Source: Sulfurimonas lithotrophica | Lineage (GTDB): Bacteria; Campylobacterota; Campylobacteria; Campylobacterales; Sulfurimonadaceae | Assembly (NCBI RefSeq): GCF_009258225.1 | Contig: NZ_CP043617.1 | Location: 2,046,001-2,110,000 of the forward strand | Reading direction: 5' to 3' | Length of the DNA stretch: 64,000 bases | Part shown: piece after piece, positions 1,481 to 7,911 of the stretch | Position numbering within the stretch: position 1 is the first letter of the stretch | Layout: each line of letters begins with the position of its first letter | Program-made: the position numbers and the translations under genes | The notes under the pieces: model-generated | The model's database searches: none | What the model saw: only the letters and a program-made list of their open reading frames with translations | What the model was told of the DNA's origin: nothing

Positions 1481-4400
1481 ATGAAGTTAAAACTTTATCT
1501 TTTTATCATATTTGTTATATTTAATATACTTGTACTTTCATTAACCGAGATAAATAAAGATGAAAGAATCGACATAGCGTTAAAAACACATCTTAATACC
1601 CTAGATAAAAATTTCAAAAGTATCCAATATCAAGAAAAAATTTTAGTACAAAATACTTTAGAGTTTATTCAAAAAAACCTCATAGATCTTTTAGAAAAAC
1701 TTCCCGACTCAAGTGAAGAAGAAAAAAATAGTTTAAGAAAAAAAATATATGAAAAGTTACTGCTTAAATATACTCAGCTCAAAAAAAACGGTGTATATCA
1801 GTTTCAATTTACTTTAGAAGACAATAGAACTTTTTTACGTATGCATAAACCTGATAAGTACGGCGATGACCTTAGCCAAATCAGATATAGTTTAAGACAT
1901 GTAAATAAAACCAAACAACCCGTAGTAGGATTTGAAGGCGGTAAAACAACCAATGCTCTGCGATATGTTGAACCTTTATTTGACAAAAAAGGCAACTATA
2001 TATGTGCAGTTGAGATCTCTTTTTCAACTGCATATATACAAAACTATCTAACAAATATCAGCAATCTACATTCACACTTTTTGGTACATAAAGATACTTT
2101 TTCAAAAAAGGTATGGGATAAAAACAAATTTAAATCAAAATATATAGAAGCTGCAGAAGATGATGAATATATGATGACCTTAACACAACAGCACACACAA
2201 AAAACTTGTATATCAGACAATAAAAATAAACTAAAAAACTACACAGATATAATACATACCAAGATGCATAAAGAAAAACCGTTTGCCATATATGTAGAAC
2301 ACGATACAAAAGAACATTATAATTCTGGACGTGAAGATGAACATATAGACGTTGTTTCCTTTTATCCTATTTATAATACTCAAGGAAACACATCAGCATG
2401 GGTAGTTTCATATGCTATAGATGATTTTATTAAAGCTACGTTATATGGAGCTAGACTTACGCAAACAAGTTCATTTATTATTATGTTGGTTCTTTTTTAC
2501 TTTATTTATAGAGTTTTTAATCAAAAAAAAGAACTAGAGTTAAAAGTTGCAGATAGAACAAAAGAACTTCAACTAAAAACTCAAGAGTTAAAAACATATT
2601 TTGACTCTATGCCCGATGGATTGGCTGTTATAAATCTAAATACGCAACTAATTACTAATGTAAACAAATCATTTGAAAAATTGACCGGATATACAAAAGA
2701 TAAACTTATAAACTATACCAAAGACATAATAATTCCAGAGAAAGACATCGATTATGTAAACAAACACTTTAAACAACATATAAAGGGAAAAGACCATATT
2801 GCAAAAGAGATTCCTATATTAAATAAAGATGGACATATAACTTACTGTGACGTGGCAGCAAAGAGATATGACATAGAAGAAACACCGTTTATTATAGGTG
2901 TATTTAGAGATGCATCTCAAAGATTAAAACTCGAACAAGAACTAATCGAAGCAAAAGAAAAAGCAGAAGAATCTGCAAAAACAAAAAGTTACTTTTTGGC
3001 AAATATGTCACATGAGATAAGGACACCTATGAACGGTATTATAGGTATGGCTCATTTAGCTTTAAATACAGACTTAAACAAACAGCAAAAACACTACATA
3101 AACAGAATCGACACTTCTGCAAAATCACTTCTTGGTATTATAAACGATATATTGGATATAAGTAAGATTGAAGCGGGAAAACTCGAAATAGAAAAAACAA
3201 GCTTTAATCTTTTTGATATGATAGAACATGTAATAAATATGATTGAAGTCAAAGCATATAACCAAGGTCTGGACCTTATTGTAAACTATGACTTAAATTT
3301 AGGTAAAATATATTACGGGGATAGTTCTAGAATAAGTCAAATACTCATAAACCTTTTGTCTAATGCAGTTAAGTTCACTCAAAAGGGAGAGATAATACTT
3401 GAGGTAAAAGAAGACGGCAAAAATCGTGTAAGGTTTGAAGTAAGAGATACCGGTATAGGTCTTACTAAAGAACAAAAAGACAAATTATTTCATTCTTTTA
3501 CTCAGGCAGACAGCAGTACAAGTAAAAAATACGGCGGAACCGGCCTTGGTTTAGCTATATCTAAAGAGTTGGTTGAAATGATGAACGGTAATATATGGGT
3601 TGAGAGTAAAGTCGATGTTGGAAGTAGTTTCATATTTGACATCGAACTAAGCAAAGATCGCTTAGCAAAACCTTTTTCAACATTTAACGGTAAAAAAGTT
3701 CTTTTGATAGACGATAGTGAAAGTTGGTTGGACATATTAACATATCAATTAAACTCGTTTGGTCTGGATGTAGAATCTGCACTAAGTGCCAAAGAGGGTA
3801 TAGAACTTATAAAAAATAAAAAAGATGACTACGACTTAATCTTAATAGATTGGGATATGCCTGATTTTAACGGTATAGATGCATTTAAAATAATACATGA
3901 AAAATTTGGTGTAGAAGCTAGAAAAAATATCCTTATAAGTGCACACCATAGAGATATTTTAAGCGATGATATGGAGAGTGCGAATATAGAAAACTTTTTA
4001 CATAAACCTATAAACCCTTCATATTTAAATGATATGTTATCGGAAATATTTTTAGGTGAAGATAGTATAAAAAAATATGACACAAATTCTGATAAAGAGT
4101 TAGAAAACCAAATCAAAACGTTAAAAGGAAGCAAAGTATTACTGGTAGAAGACAATGAAGTAAATCAAGAACTTACATTAGAATTATTAAACGATAGCGG
4201 TATAAAGATAGATATAGCATCCAATGGGCTTGAAGCAATTAAAAAATTTGAACAAAACTCTTATGAACTTATATTGATGGATATTCAGATGCCTTTGCTT
4301 GACGGTTATGAAGCTACTAAAAAAATAAGAAAAACAGATAAAAATATCCCGATAATAGCCTTAACCGCAAATGCTATGACCGAAGATATAGAAAAAGCTC

Positions 4401-5056
4401 AAGAAGCAGGGATGAATAAGCATCTAAGCAAACCTATCGAAGTCGATAAACTTTTTAAGACCTTACTAAAATACATAAGTAAAAAAACAGATATAACAGA
4501 AGAAAAAAGTAATGACTCATATACTATGGATATTCCTAAGTTCAATACTTTAGATAAAGAGTACGGTTTAAATCTTGTTTCGGGTAAAAACAGTGCATAT
4601 ATTCAGGTACTAAAAGGCTTGATTAAGTATAAAGAAATAGACTTTGATATTATGGAAGATGAAGATCTTAAAAGAGCTATGCATACTCTAAAAGGCATTA
4701 GTGCGAGTGCGGGAGCTTTATACCTTAGAGATTCGGCAGAGGAGATAGAAAAAAATCTAAACAGGACACTTTTACCTCAACTTGTTATAAATCTAAATGA
4801 AATAATTAGGGAAATAGAAGAAAAAATCAATTTAAACAGTATCGAAAAAATAGAGATTAGCAAAGAAAAAAAAGATGAACTTTTTACTAAATTAAAAGAG
4901 GCTCTCTCCACAAAAAGGGCAAAAAATATTAAGCCTATAATAGAAGAGTTGGATAAATATATACTGGATGAAGATGAGAATAAAATTTTTAAAGAACTAA
5001 AACATCTGTGTTCAAAGTTTAAGTTCAAACAAGCACTAGGACTTTTAGATGGATAA
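1481..5056 (+). CDS. Hybrid sensor histidine kinase (sensor-PAS-HisKA-HATPase-REC-REC-HPt)
   Basis: This 1191-residue membrane kinase carries a complete phosphorelay in one chain. A transmembrane segment at about 5-22 and another at about 330-350 bracket a roughly 300-residue periplasmic region that looks like a CACHE-type sensor. A PAS domain follows (about 370-480), then HisKA with the phospho-acceptor H511 in [11 protein letters not shown], an HATPase domain with GTGLGLAIS near 686, two receiver domains (phospho-acceptors D790 in LIDWDMP and D934 in LMDIQMP) and a C-terminal HPt domain with H1068 in MHTLKG. The 3' end overlaps the next gene by eight bases, so the HPt probably passes phosphate to that response regulator. 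The ligand cannot be told from the sequence. Confidence 0.93.
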
Positions 5057-6431
5057 TTTAAAAACAATATTAATTATAGACGATGCAGAAATAAACATCA
5101 ATGTCTTAATGGAACTACTTGACGATAAATATGACATTTTAGCTTCTTTGGATGCCAAAGACGGACTCGAAATACTTAAAGAAGAAAAAGTAGATTTAAT
5201 ATTATTAGACATCATTATGCCAGAAATTGACGGTTTTGAAGTTTGTAAAAGATTAAAAAGCGATCCTGATACTAAAGATATTCCCGTAATATTTATCACG
5301 GCAAGTACGGATGAGGATTCAATAGAGAGAGCTTATGACGTAGGAGCTGTCGATTATATAACAAAACCTTTTAAAGCTAAAGAGGTATTATCCAGAATTA
5401 ATACGCATCTAGCTTTATCCGAGCAAAAAATAATTTTGGAAAAGGACCTTGAAGAAAATAAAATTCTTCTAAATCAATATAAAGAAGTTGTTGATATTAG
5501 TGCTATAGTCTCAAAAACAGACCTTAAAGGTAGGATAACCTATGTAAATAAAGCATTTACCGAAATATCGGGCTACTCAAAAGAGGAACTTATTGGCAAA
5601 AACCATAATATCATAAGGCACCCGGATGTTTCAAAAAATATATTTAAAGATATGTGGAAAACTATTCAAAGTAAACATGTATGGCAAGGAGAAGTAAAAA
5701 ATCTCAAAAAAGACGGTGGATACTATGTTGTCCAAAGTGTTGTCATGCCGATACTTGATACTAAAGGGGATATTGAAGAATACATCAGTGTCAGATATGA
5801 TATTACAGATACATATGATTTACAAAAAGAGATTGAACATACCCAAAAAGAAGTTGTATTTACCATGGGTGCTATAGGTGAAACAAGAAGTAAAGAAACC
5901 GGAAACCATGTAAAAAGAGTTGCCGAATACTCTAGAGCTTTAGCTAAACACTTAGGCTTAAGTAAAGAGATAGTTGACTTGATAGCAGATGCATCCCCTA
6001 TGCATGATATAGGAAAAGTAGCAATTCACGATAATATTTTACATAAACCCTCAAAACTTACCGATGATGAATTTGCAATAATGAGAACCCACGCCGAGCT
6101 TGGGCATAAAATGCTTGCCCATTCTGACAGACCTCTTTTAAGAGTAGCTGCAAGAATAGCACTTGAACATCACGAAAGATGGGACGGGAATGGTTATCCT
6201 AGGCATTTAAAAGGAGAAGACATCTCTTTGGAGGGCAGAATAACCGCTATAGCAGATGTATTTGATGCACTAGGATCAGACAGGGTTTACAAACAAGCTT
6301 GGGACGATAAAAAAATCTTTGAATACTTTAAAAAACAAAGATCAAAACAGTTTGATCCAAAGCTTGTCGATATATTTTTTGACAACTTAAACGAGTTCTT
6401 AGAGATACGCGAAACATTTAAAGATGTCTAA
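5049..6431 (+). CDS. REC-PAS-HD-GYP response regulator, probable cyclic di-GMP phosphodiesterase
   Basis: The 460-residue protein starts with a receiver domain (phospho-acceptor D54 in LLDIIMP), then a PAS domain at about 145-260, then an HD-GYP domain at about 275-440. The HD pair is H319-D320 in HDIGK and the GYP triad appears in [11 protein letters not shown], so catalytic residues are intact. Such proteins hydrolyse cyclic di-GMP. The PAS segment [17 protein letters not shown] resembles the redox- or oxygen-sensing PAS of Aer-type proteins. It overlaps the hybrid kinase by eight bases and is its likely partner. A cyclic di-GMP aptamer lies about 450 bases downstream on the other strand. 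Confidence 0.93.
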
Positions 6432-6435
6432 AAAT

Positions 6436-6822
6436 TTAAAACCTAATATTTAAACCCGCATAAACTCTTGAGGTTTCAATACCGTCATACTTAAGAGTTC
6501 TATATTTTTCATAATAATGTTTCAGCTCATCAAAAATCTGTTGAGATGAAGCATATTTGAAAAAGTAACTAAAAGAGTTACTAATATCTCCTGAAACTCC
6601 GATACCTACACCTAAATCCGAAAAATTTAAATCTTTGAAATCGATTTTCAGATCTCGAAGTTTATTGTTTAGATAAACAAACGGTTCAAAGTGTTCACTA
6701 ACCTTGATAGAATATCCGAATCCACTTTTAACTTTAAGAATCCCTGTTTCACCGGCTACGTCTATGGTATCGGCTTTAAGAGATATAAGAGCAAAGAGTA
6801 GAATAAACAAAATACTTTTCAT
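6436..6822 (-). CDS. Small exported protein, possible outer-membrane beta-barrel, under a c-di-GMP riboswitch
   Basis: I do not recognise this 128-residue protein. It begins with a clear Sec signal peptide (MKSILFILLFALISLKA), after which alternating hydrophobic and polar residues and a C-terminal phenylalanine (AGLNIRF) suggest a small beta-barrel or barrel fragment at the outer membrane. An AAAGGA ribosome site stands nine bases before the ATG. The gene is preceded by a 5' leader of about 160 bases containing a class I cyclic di-GMP aptamer, so expression probably follows the level of that second messenger. It ends five bases from the convergent HD-GYP gene. Family assignment would need a profile search. 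Confidence 0.7.
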   Translation of the reverse strand: MKSILFILLFALISLKADTIDVAGETGILKVKSGFGYSIKVSEHFEPFVYLNNKLRDLKIDFKDLNFSDLGVGIGVSGDISNSFSYFFKYASSQQIFDELKHYYEKYRTLKYDGIETSRVYAGLNIRF

Positions 6823-6883
6823 AACAAATCCTTTAAAGTAAAGTATATTGTTTGCATACTACTAAAAGCTAGGGGGAAAATAT

Positions 6884-6992
6884 AACAATGTGAAAACATT
6901 ATTAGCAACCTGGCGATCTCAACAATGCTTGAGACCCATGGCTTTCCGTCCTTACTTCACAGTAAGTTTGGCAATCAACAGTTTCCATTGTA
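6884..6992 (-). promoter_or_regulatory. Class I cyclic di-GMP (GEMM-I) riboswitch aptamer
   Basis: Read on the minus strand, the leader matches the Vibrio Vc2 aptamer in order and spacing. It contains a GCCAAA strand, a six-base-pair hairpin CUUACU/AGUAAG capped by the GNRA tetraloop GUGA, then GACGGAAAGCC, then a second hairpin (GGUCUCAA/UUGAGAUC), then AGGUUGC. The Vc2 pair G21-C46 is replaced by C-G here (CCAAA with ACGGAAA), a compensatory change. Positions equivalent to G20, A47 and C92, which contact the ligand, appear conserved; a G at position 20 favours cyclic di-GMP over cGAMP. Outer strands ACAAUG and CAUUGU can close the P1 stem. The 60 bases to the ATG contain no clear terminator, so control may be translational. 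Confidence 0.83.
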
Positions 6993-7015
6993 ACATAATT
7001 TTTTATAAATATCAA
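6987..7015 (-). promoter_or_regulatory. Candidate promoter of the riboswitch transcript
   Basis: TTGATA (7010-7015) and TACAAT (6987-6992) are separated by 17 bases on the minus strand. If used, transcription would begin near 6980, inside the 5' strand of the predicted P1 stem but upstream of the aptamer core. A start further upstream would give the full P1 stem, so the true start needs mapping. Confidence 0.35.
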
Positions 7016-7053
7016 ACTTTTATATTTGTTTTAATAATGATAAAAAATTAAAA

Positions 7054-7911
7054 CTAAACAACTTTACAAATAATATCACCAATCTCTTTGTTAAGTGAAG
7101 ATGCAACAACAGAGCATTTTACTTTGAGTAAAAAACATATATCGCCTCTGTGTGAAGGACTCATACATTCATAATTTCCCATCCCTTTTGAGATGATCAA
7201 GTCTGCATTGTCAAACAACTCTTTTGCCTCTTTTGTTGCTCTGTTATATGTAAATCCCGGTGTATTTACACCCGAATCAACAAGCTTGCATATATTATCA
7301 AAGCCCGCTTCTTTTGCTTCTTTTATAGTTACATCATTTATAATAGGGTTTCCACGTACCATATATGTAATCTCTACATTTGGATAAAGTTCATTCAAAG
7401 TCTCTATAAACATATAATCAAATATATGCTCACCTACGTTATCTCCGATAATAACTATATTTTGTGCTTTTTTTAAGTTCTCTTTTAAAAGTTCAAAGTC
7501 ATTGTGGGCAAACTGGGTATGAAATATTTTTTCAAGTTCATCTTCTAGGTCAAACTCAACTTCGGCAGCCAAGTCTATAACATTTCCCGCTACTGCTATT
7601 TTTGTAGCGGTTAATAGTTTATCTTTTGAGTTTGTTAATTTTTCTTGTAAAAGAGGTACAAAACTGAGTGCTTTTTGAGTAGAATGTTCTTTTACCTCAT
7701 CATAGAGGTCTTTCTTTTTAGCAATACGTGCCATCTCCTCATATACATATGAAGCAATTTCAGGCGGAGTATCATCAAATGAGAACTCTTTGCTCAGATT
7801 CTTAACGGTTGAAGTTAGTTTATTTGATAGTATATCATCCGCTTCAATAGCGTTGGCTACTTTAGCACTTTGATTTATGATACATTCAACACATTCGGGA
7901 GATATTGTCAT
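7054..7911 (-). CDS. DUF89 / ARMT1-like metal-dependent damage-control phosphatase
   Basis: The 285-residue protein matches the DUF89 family, metal-dependent phosphatases that remove damaged or surplus phosphorylated metabolites. Visible hallmarks are an N-terminal CVECI pair of cysteines, the central motif GDNVGEHIFDYMFIETL (family form GDNAGE-FD), and ISKGMGNYE near residue 240. The closest described subgroup is the archaeal-type DUF89. It is last in a five-gene minus-strand run (CheZ-like, U32, purE, coiled-coil protein, this gene), 15 bases after its neighbour. The physiological substrate cannot be deduced. Confidence 0.75.
   Translation of the reverse strand: MTISPECVECIINQSAKVANAIEADDILSNKLTSTVKNLSKEFSFDDTPPEIASYVYEEMARIAKKKDLYDEVKEHSTQKALSFVPLLQEKLTNSKDKLLTATKIAVAGNVIDLAAEVEFDLEDELEKIFHTQFAHNDFELLKENLKKAQNIVIIGDNVGEHIFDYMFIETLNELYPNVEITYMVRGNPIINDVTIKEAKEAGFDNICKLVDSGVNTPGFTYNRATKEAKELFDNADLIISKGMGNYECMSPSHRGDICFLLKVKCSVVASSLNKEIGDIICKVV

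Follow-up and report, generated by a model that had tools for sequence, protein, structure and literature searches.

Does the RNA in front of a small gene of Sulfurimonas lithotrophica sense cyclic di-GMP (c-di-GMP), and if so, how might it act on that gene and how exceptional is it for the Campylobacterota? The question is raised by a 64,000-nucleotide stretch of DNA from this bacterium (hereafter the window), in which an earlier note, written from the letters alone, had recognized a class I c-di-GMP (GEMM-I) aptamer. The source genome (2.42 Mb, completeness 99.99%, contamination 3.13%) consists of two contigs, and the window belongs to the one of 2.38 Mb. Excerpts of two publications describe riboswitches as absent from C. 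jejuni and H. pylori except for the TPP riboswitch (PMC3847290, PMC8322730), and a passage of a third states that Campylobacterota are without GGDEF domains and make no c-di-GMP (PMC12943098). Among the papers listed by our searches of the open-licence PMC literature, we found no report on a class I c-di-GMP aptamer in this phylum; Rfam may record it.

The covariance-model search that the earlier note had suggested, run with cmscan on the whole window, yields a match to RF01051 (c-di-GMP-I) at positions 6982-6901 of the minus strand, which scores 62.2 bits where the gathering score is 35 (E = 9.2e-10). The match is full length, covering model positions 1-87 of 87, and is the sole Rfam match above the gathering score in the window. 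All parts named in support of the aptamer are found, in the sequence GCCAAAC, a 6-bp hairpin (CUUACU-GUGA-AGUAAG), GACGGAAAGCC, a second hairpin and AGGUUGC. The span originally assigned to the element, 6884-6992, does contain the aptamer but is somewhat wide: it includes the predicted -10 box (6992-6987) and touches the first base of a conserved block (6884-6850), both of which are described below.

In the numbering of Vc2, the RF01051 aptamer of Vibrio cholerae, transferred here through our own alignment of Vc2 with the covariance model, the window aptamer carries G20, the pairs C21-G46 and C22-G45, A23-A25, GUGA at 32-35, G42, C44, A47-A49, C59 and C92. Excerpts of a study on this class name G20, A47, A48 and C92 as its ligand-pocket residues (PMC3764141), and all four are present, including the three whose conservation had been noted from the letters (G20, A47 and the 3' contact C, which is C92). 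The same excerpts list highly conserved positions (PMC3764141), of which those mapped here (G20, C22, A23, A25, G32, A35, G42, C44, G45, A47-A49, C59 and C92) are all kept in the window; the list further includes G79, G83 and G90. The GNRA loop of P2 (GUGA, 32-35) and C44, the residues for a predicted contact with P3, are present as well. Thus, Vc2 and the window share the fold, G20, A47 and C92, the GNRA loop, C44 and both hairpins, but differ at two pairs: Vc2 has G21-C46 and G14-C93, whereas the window has C21-G46 and, in the standard register, U-U at 14-93. The latter position is the apex pair of P1, and the identity at 14 is described as variable in the excerpts (PMC3764141). Across the Campylobacterota, it is G-C in 35 and U-U in 2 of 105 parsed copies, which are the 106 sites found in the phylum minus one sub-threshold match.

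The phylum's aptamers also bear on the reality of the structure. In 53 of them, mostly higher-scoring matches (L001-L030 and L107-L130 without L021, which duplicates the L020 aptamer), pairing is preserved in 98.6% of 954 cells, and both sides have changed in 12 of 18 pairs. None of 500 shuffles matches the true alignment in any of five measures, and six slid controls of the pairing test each score far lower than the true register. Score and covariation together place the aptamer beyond chance, and with the mapped pocket residues they identify the element at 6982-6901 as a genuine class I c-di-GMP riboswitch, ordinary of its kind.

The C21-G46 pair illustrates this ordinariness. The earlier note had read it as a swap of the G21-C46 pair of Vc2 that preserves pairing, and both the residue mapping and the 53-copy covariation bear this out: the pair is C-G in 50 copies of that set, G-C in 2 and U-G in 1. 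What does not stand is the idea that the swap is peculiar to the window copy, as C21-G46 is present in 103 of the 105 parsed copies and also occurs in other phyla. A pattern search of GTDB genomes, biased toward a stem of the window's type, returned 62 stretches with C21-G46. By record title, 51 of them are from Campylobacterota (Sulfurovum, Sulfurimonas, Arcobacter, Thiovulum, Nitratifractor and relatives with vaguer names) and 11 from other groups, including Thiomicrorhabdus, Hydrogenovibrio, Alteromonas, Marinobacter and Desulfospira; none of the 62 bears the name Campylobacter or Helicobacter. As a side observation, two Sulfurimonas loci, L014 (G200) and L027 (G186), have G21-C46 as in Vc2. 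The proteins encoded behind them resemble each other in being rich in Thr and Asp and probably account for the two DUF4214 matches among the downstream genes discussed below; their aptamers were possibly acquired separately.

The gene behind the aptamer, which very probably stands under the control of c-di-GMP through it, spans 6436-6822 on the minus strand and encodes a protein of 128 residues. With a signal-peptide-like hydrophobic N-terminus and a C-terminal phenylalanine, this protein is probably exported; at E ≤ 0.001 it matches no family of Pfam or NCBIfam, and its AlphaFold2 model, computed with three sequences, has a mean pLDDT of 38. Relatives occur in 4 of 135 Sulfurimonas genomes, three close and one weak. 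The close orthologues, in genomes G439 (72% identity) and G379 (63%), both lie behind an RF01051 aptamer, so that the aptamer is present in all three close-orthologue genomes, including the window's own, whereas none was found in G289, the genome of the weak relative (E = 1.3e-4). Beside the riboswitch gene, at 1481-6431 on the plus strand, the window holds a hybrid histidine kinase and a PAS/HD-GYP response regulator. We considered a link between the riboswitch and the HD-GYP gene (5049-6431, plus strand) and rejected it: the kinase/HD-GYP pair, which sits between the riboswitch gene and the next gene shared by the three loci, does so in the window only and is absent there in G379 and G439.

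Upstream of the aptamer lies a predicted sigma-70-type promoter (6987-7015, minus strand), composed of TTGATA (7015-7010), a spacer of 17 bases and TACAAT (6992-6987). It has a TG before the -10 box and 10 of 12 consensus matches, and it ranks first among the 8 promoter-like sites of 6400-7200, a region whose shuffles average 3.7. In the alignment of the three orthologous loci, TACAATG is identical, and G439, unlike G379, retains TTGATA at matching spacing. Given that the promoter match ends at 6987, transcription is expected to start near 6980, within the first bases of the aptamer. This would give a leader of about 158 nt, in which the coding sequence begins 78 bases past the aptamer end, behind a predicted ribosome binding site, AAAGGA (6829-6834, minus strand). 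Overall, the leader folds only mildly better than its shuffles (z = -1.86, 12/200).

The most conspicuous part of this leader is not the aptamer itself, but a block of 35 bases downstream of it (6850-6884, minus strand). It is identical at 35 of 35 positions in the three orthologues, compared with 73 of 82 in the aptamer, 26 of 64 in the upstream 60 bases, and 70 of 123 and 169 of 260 columns in the gene; this unusual conservation of the RNA adjoining the sensor is part of the locus's interest. Of the bases in the block, 22 are pyrimidines. In free folds of all three leaders, the block pairs at high probability with leader bases about 13-44, corresponding to 6973-6942, at the expense of the aptamer fold. 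Forcing the aptamer yields a secondary structure that is less stable than the free fold by about 10-13 kcal/mol, and it would fall to ligand, tertiary contacts or kinetics to make up this difference. When the transcript is grown in steps of 10 bases, the six native P2 pairs are intact up to 115 bases and none is left at 125, a loss that coincides with the emergence of the block in all three orthologues.

Shuffling tests give a less uniform picture. The number of bases paired between block and aptamer is equalled in 5, 3 and 14 of 300 block-only shuffles in the three orthologues; for the energy of the fold, the corresponding counts are 45, 46 and 36 of 300. A duplex test of the aptamer core against the next 70 bases is not significant for the window (z = -0.85, 37/200 shuffles) or for G379 (z = -0.14, 86/200), G439 being outside this test. 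The evidence for an invasion of the aptamer by the block is mixed, and suggestive at most. Anti-aptamer pairing as a general rule we rejected: the z values of 106 sites average -0.22, with 5 sites below -2 and 1 below -3. At a separate locus, L004 (G074), the complementarity between the aptamer core and the next 70 bases is striking (duplex z = -4.83, 0/200 shuffles), so that strand invasion is more plausible there than in the window.

How, then, might ligand binding be passed on to the gene? We tentatively propose that transcription would start at the aptamer, which would fold first and could bind c-di-GMP. As the polymerase advances, the 35-base block would emerge and, by pairing with the aptamer, disrupt its fold, except where the ligand holds the aptamer in place. 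With ligand, the block would thus stay single-stranded ahead of the ribosome site, and without ligand, it would be locked in a long helix over the 5' end of the mRNA. The ligand-bound state would be the ON state, with translation or mRNA stability as the most likely output step. Such a block invasion is a possibility that we would not bet on, and the ON direction, argued by analogy with Vc1-gbpA, is mildly favoured.

The terminator scan and the modelled accessibilities of ribosome site and start codon reveal no output step in the leader. Masking of the ribosome site was considered and rejected, as the two states differ in the modelled accessibility of AAAGGA by about 0.2 per base at most. The accessibility of the start codon shifts noticeably only in G379, where its first base falls from 0.91 in the free fold to 0.56 with the aptamer forced; being less open in the aptamer state, it speaks against an ON switch. 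A further idea, which we regard as unlikely, is that the leader could be a strand-invasion platform that needs neither a terminator nor a masked ribosome site, the free block serving as a landing or stability site; we know of no such output mode among class I c-di-GMP switches. If true, it might be relevant to how Vc1 works, as the output step of both Vc1 and Vc2 is stated to be unclear in passages of a paper from 2016 (PMC4744006); excerpts of a paper from 2022 call Vc2 translational (PMC9262584).

The Vc1-gbpA leader is a close parallel: in the passages that describe it, it likewise has a class I aptamer at the start of the transcript of an exported protein, shows no apparent terminator or anti-SD, and lower c-di-GMP leads to reduced expression (PMC4744006). 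It differs in having been tested in vivo, in its 225-nt leader, against about 158 nt from a predicted start in the window, and in the protein encoded (PMC4744006). The GEMM-I switches Cd1 and pilM, one OFF and one ON, resemble our proposal in that the aptamer competes with a conformation transcribed later, but according to excerpts on them, they act through terminators (PMC9262584), of which the scan of 6400-7200 found none.

Against the proposed invasion stands the reading that the block is a separate signal, for example a second promoter, a site for a protein or a small RNA, or a leader peptide. In favour of this is its invariance at 35 of 35 positions, set against the mixed evidence for pairing with the aptamer; yet 22 bases of the block, searched with up to two mismatches, occur in just 3 of 135 Sulfurimonas genomes, which are the three orthologue genomes, and there only behind this aptamer. 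We consider a separate signal doubtful. Its leader-peptide variant was rejected, as a frame starting in the block runs for 12 codons in the window, whereas its counterparts in the two orthologues are just 5 and 7 codons long.

The switch could also act through termination. Directly 3' of C92, predicted folds show an A+U-rich 9-bp hairpin (6883-6904, minus strand), followed by UAUUUU, which might be a weak terminator that the formation of P1 would weaken, giving an ON switch; alternatively, a Rho site might be exposed in the block. The hairpin draws on bases 3' of the pocket and persists in the aligned orthologues, where its changes are one-sided, and the block's excess of C over G (8 versus 4) would suit Rho. 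However, the scan found no terminator-like site in 6400-7200 (shuffles average 0.3), and the hairpin forms in the minimum-energy fold whether or not the aptamer is imposed on the model. Termination thus appears improbable as the mode of this switch.

As for the ligand, aptamers of the cGAMP-type GEMM-Ib carry A at position 20, and those of Geobacter have the same architecture as the window, which has G20 instead. The rival reading, that the aptamer prefers 3',3'-cGAMP over c-di-GMP, draws on this identical architecture and on excerpts describing the G20-equivalent position as a factor in selectivity, not a hard filter (PMC9262584); a G20A form of GEMM-I was studied with cGAMP, according to a passage of PMC6274999. 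In the window as in all 105 parsed phylum copies, however, the residue is G20, not A20, which points to c-di-GMP as the probable ligand and leaves a cGAMP preference very unlikely. The rest of the pocket is similarly constant in these copies, with AAA at 47-49 in 105 and C92 in 102 of 105. Lastly, a degenerate aptamer without function, which the single copy in the genome and the noncanonical 14-93 position might suggest, is most improbable in view of the retained pocket residues and the invariance of the aptamer relative to the sequence upstream across the three genomes.

Returning to the class I c-di-GMP aptamer at large, we found RF01051 above the cut-off in 42 of 397 sampled Campylobacterota genomes, representing 12 genera and four families. 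At E ≤ 0.001, the matching genomes number 43 and come from 13 of 68 genera, one genus being included only via a sub-threshold match; G329 is the one of these 43 genomes that lies below the gathering cut-off. The phylum sample comprises 106 sites, 104 of them above the cut-off, with up to ten per genome, whereas the window's genome has one. Within Sulfurimonas, 49 of 135 genomes have a match. Both searches were run with stricter filters, which lose weak matches. The earlier note did not know the aptamer as a usual feature of the phylum, but by these numbers it is not exceptional there; together with the pattern counts, they show that both the aptamer and its C-G pair are widespread, and the aptamer seems neglected rather than rare in Campylobacterota.

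Tandem arrangements occur as well. In G225, locus L057 (G225:C1:356375-356583) has two class I aptamers 12 bases apart, and 7 of the 62 GTDB pattern stretches (L145, L146, L147, L151, L171, L172 and L190; three Sulfurovum, one Thiomicrorhabdus) contain paired matches whose starts are 146-197 bases apart.

The genomic context is consistent with c-di-GMP signalling. The window's genome has 53 GGDEF matches, one with an internal stop, and no match at E ≤ 0.001 to PilZ, the receptor family that was searched. A common protein receptor of c-di-GMP thus seems to be missing, which makes the riboswitch a candidate receptor in this genome. Strong GGDEF matches (E ≤ 1e-35) are present in 252 of the 397 phylum genomes, at odds with the passage that denies the phylum these domains (PMC12943098). 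All 43 genomes with RF01051 at E ≤ 0.001 are among these 252 (hypergeometric p = 7.7e-10, uncorrected for kinship), which fits c-di-GMP as the ligand and points to c-di-GMP regulation at the RNA level in part of the Campylobacterota.

A crude gene call (same strand, at least 60 residues, within 450 bases) assigns a downstream gene to 92 of the 106 sites, and 86 of the products were scanned for families after six repeats or near-duplicates had been dropped. Among the matches listed (25 of 67 families), surface and sensory families prevail: PAS and PilJ have 5 each, OMP beta-barrel and DUF11 4 each, CAP, SdrD-B and the proprotein P-domain 3 each, and MCP signalling, DUF4214 and HU-type DNA-binding proteins 2 each. 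This is in line with excerpts that place GEMM elsewhere before motility, virulence and biofilm genes (PMC3766115), and the probably exported protein of the window fits the same classes. Variant aptamers (L098, L099, L100, L101 and L057) deviate in sequence where P2 begins, with GCCACCC, GCCACAC or GCTACAC rather than GCCAAAC, are also altered on the opposite side of P2 and have a longer P3; several of them precede long proteins with signal-like starts. At two further loci, L069 (G238) and L085 (G347), the aptamer precedes a gene resembling that of an HU-type DNA-binding protein, to our knowledge an unusual target for a class I c-di-GMP riboswitch.
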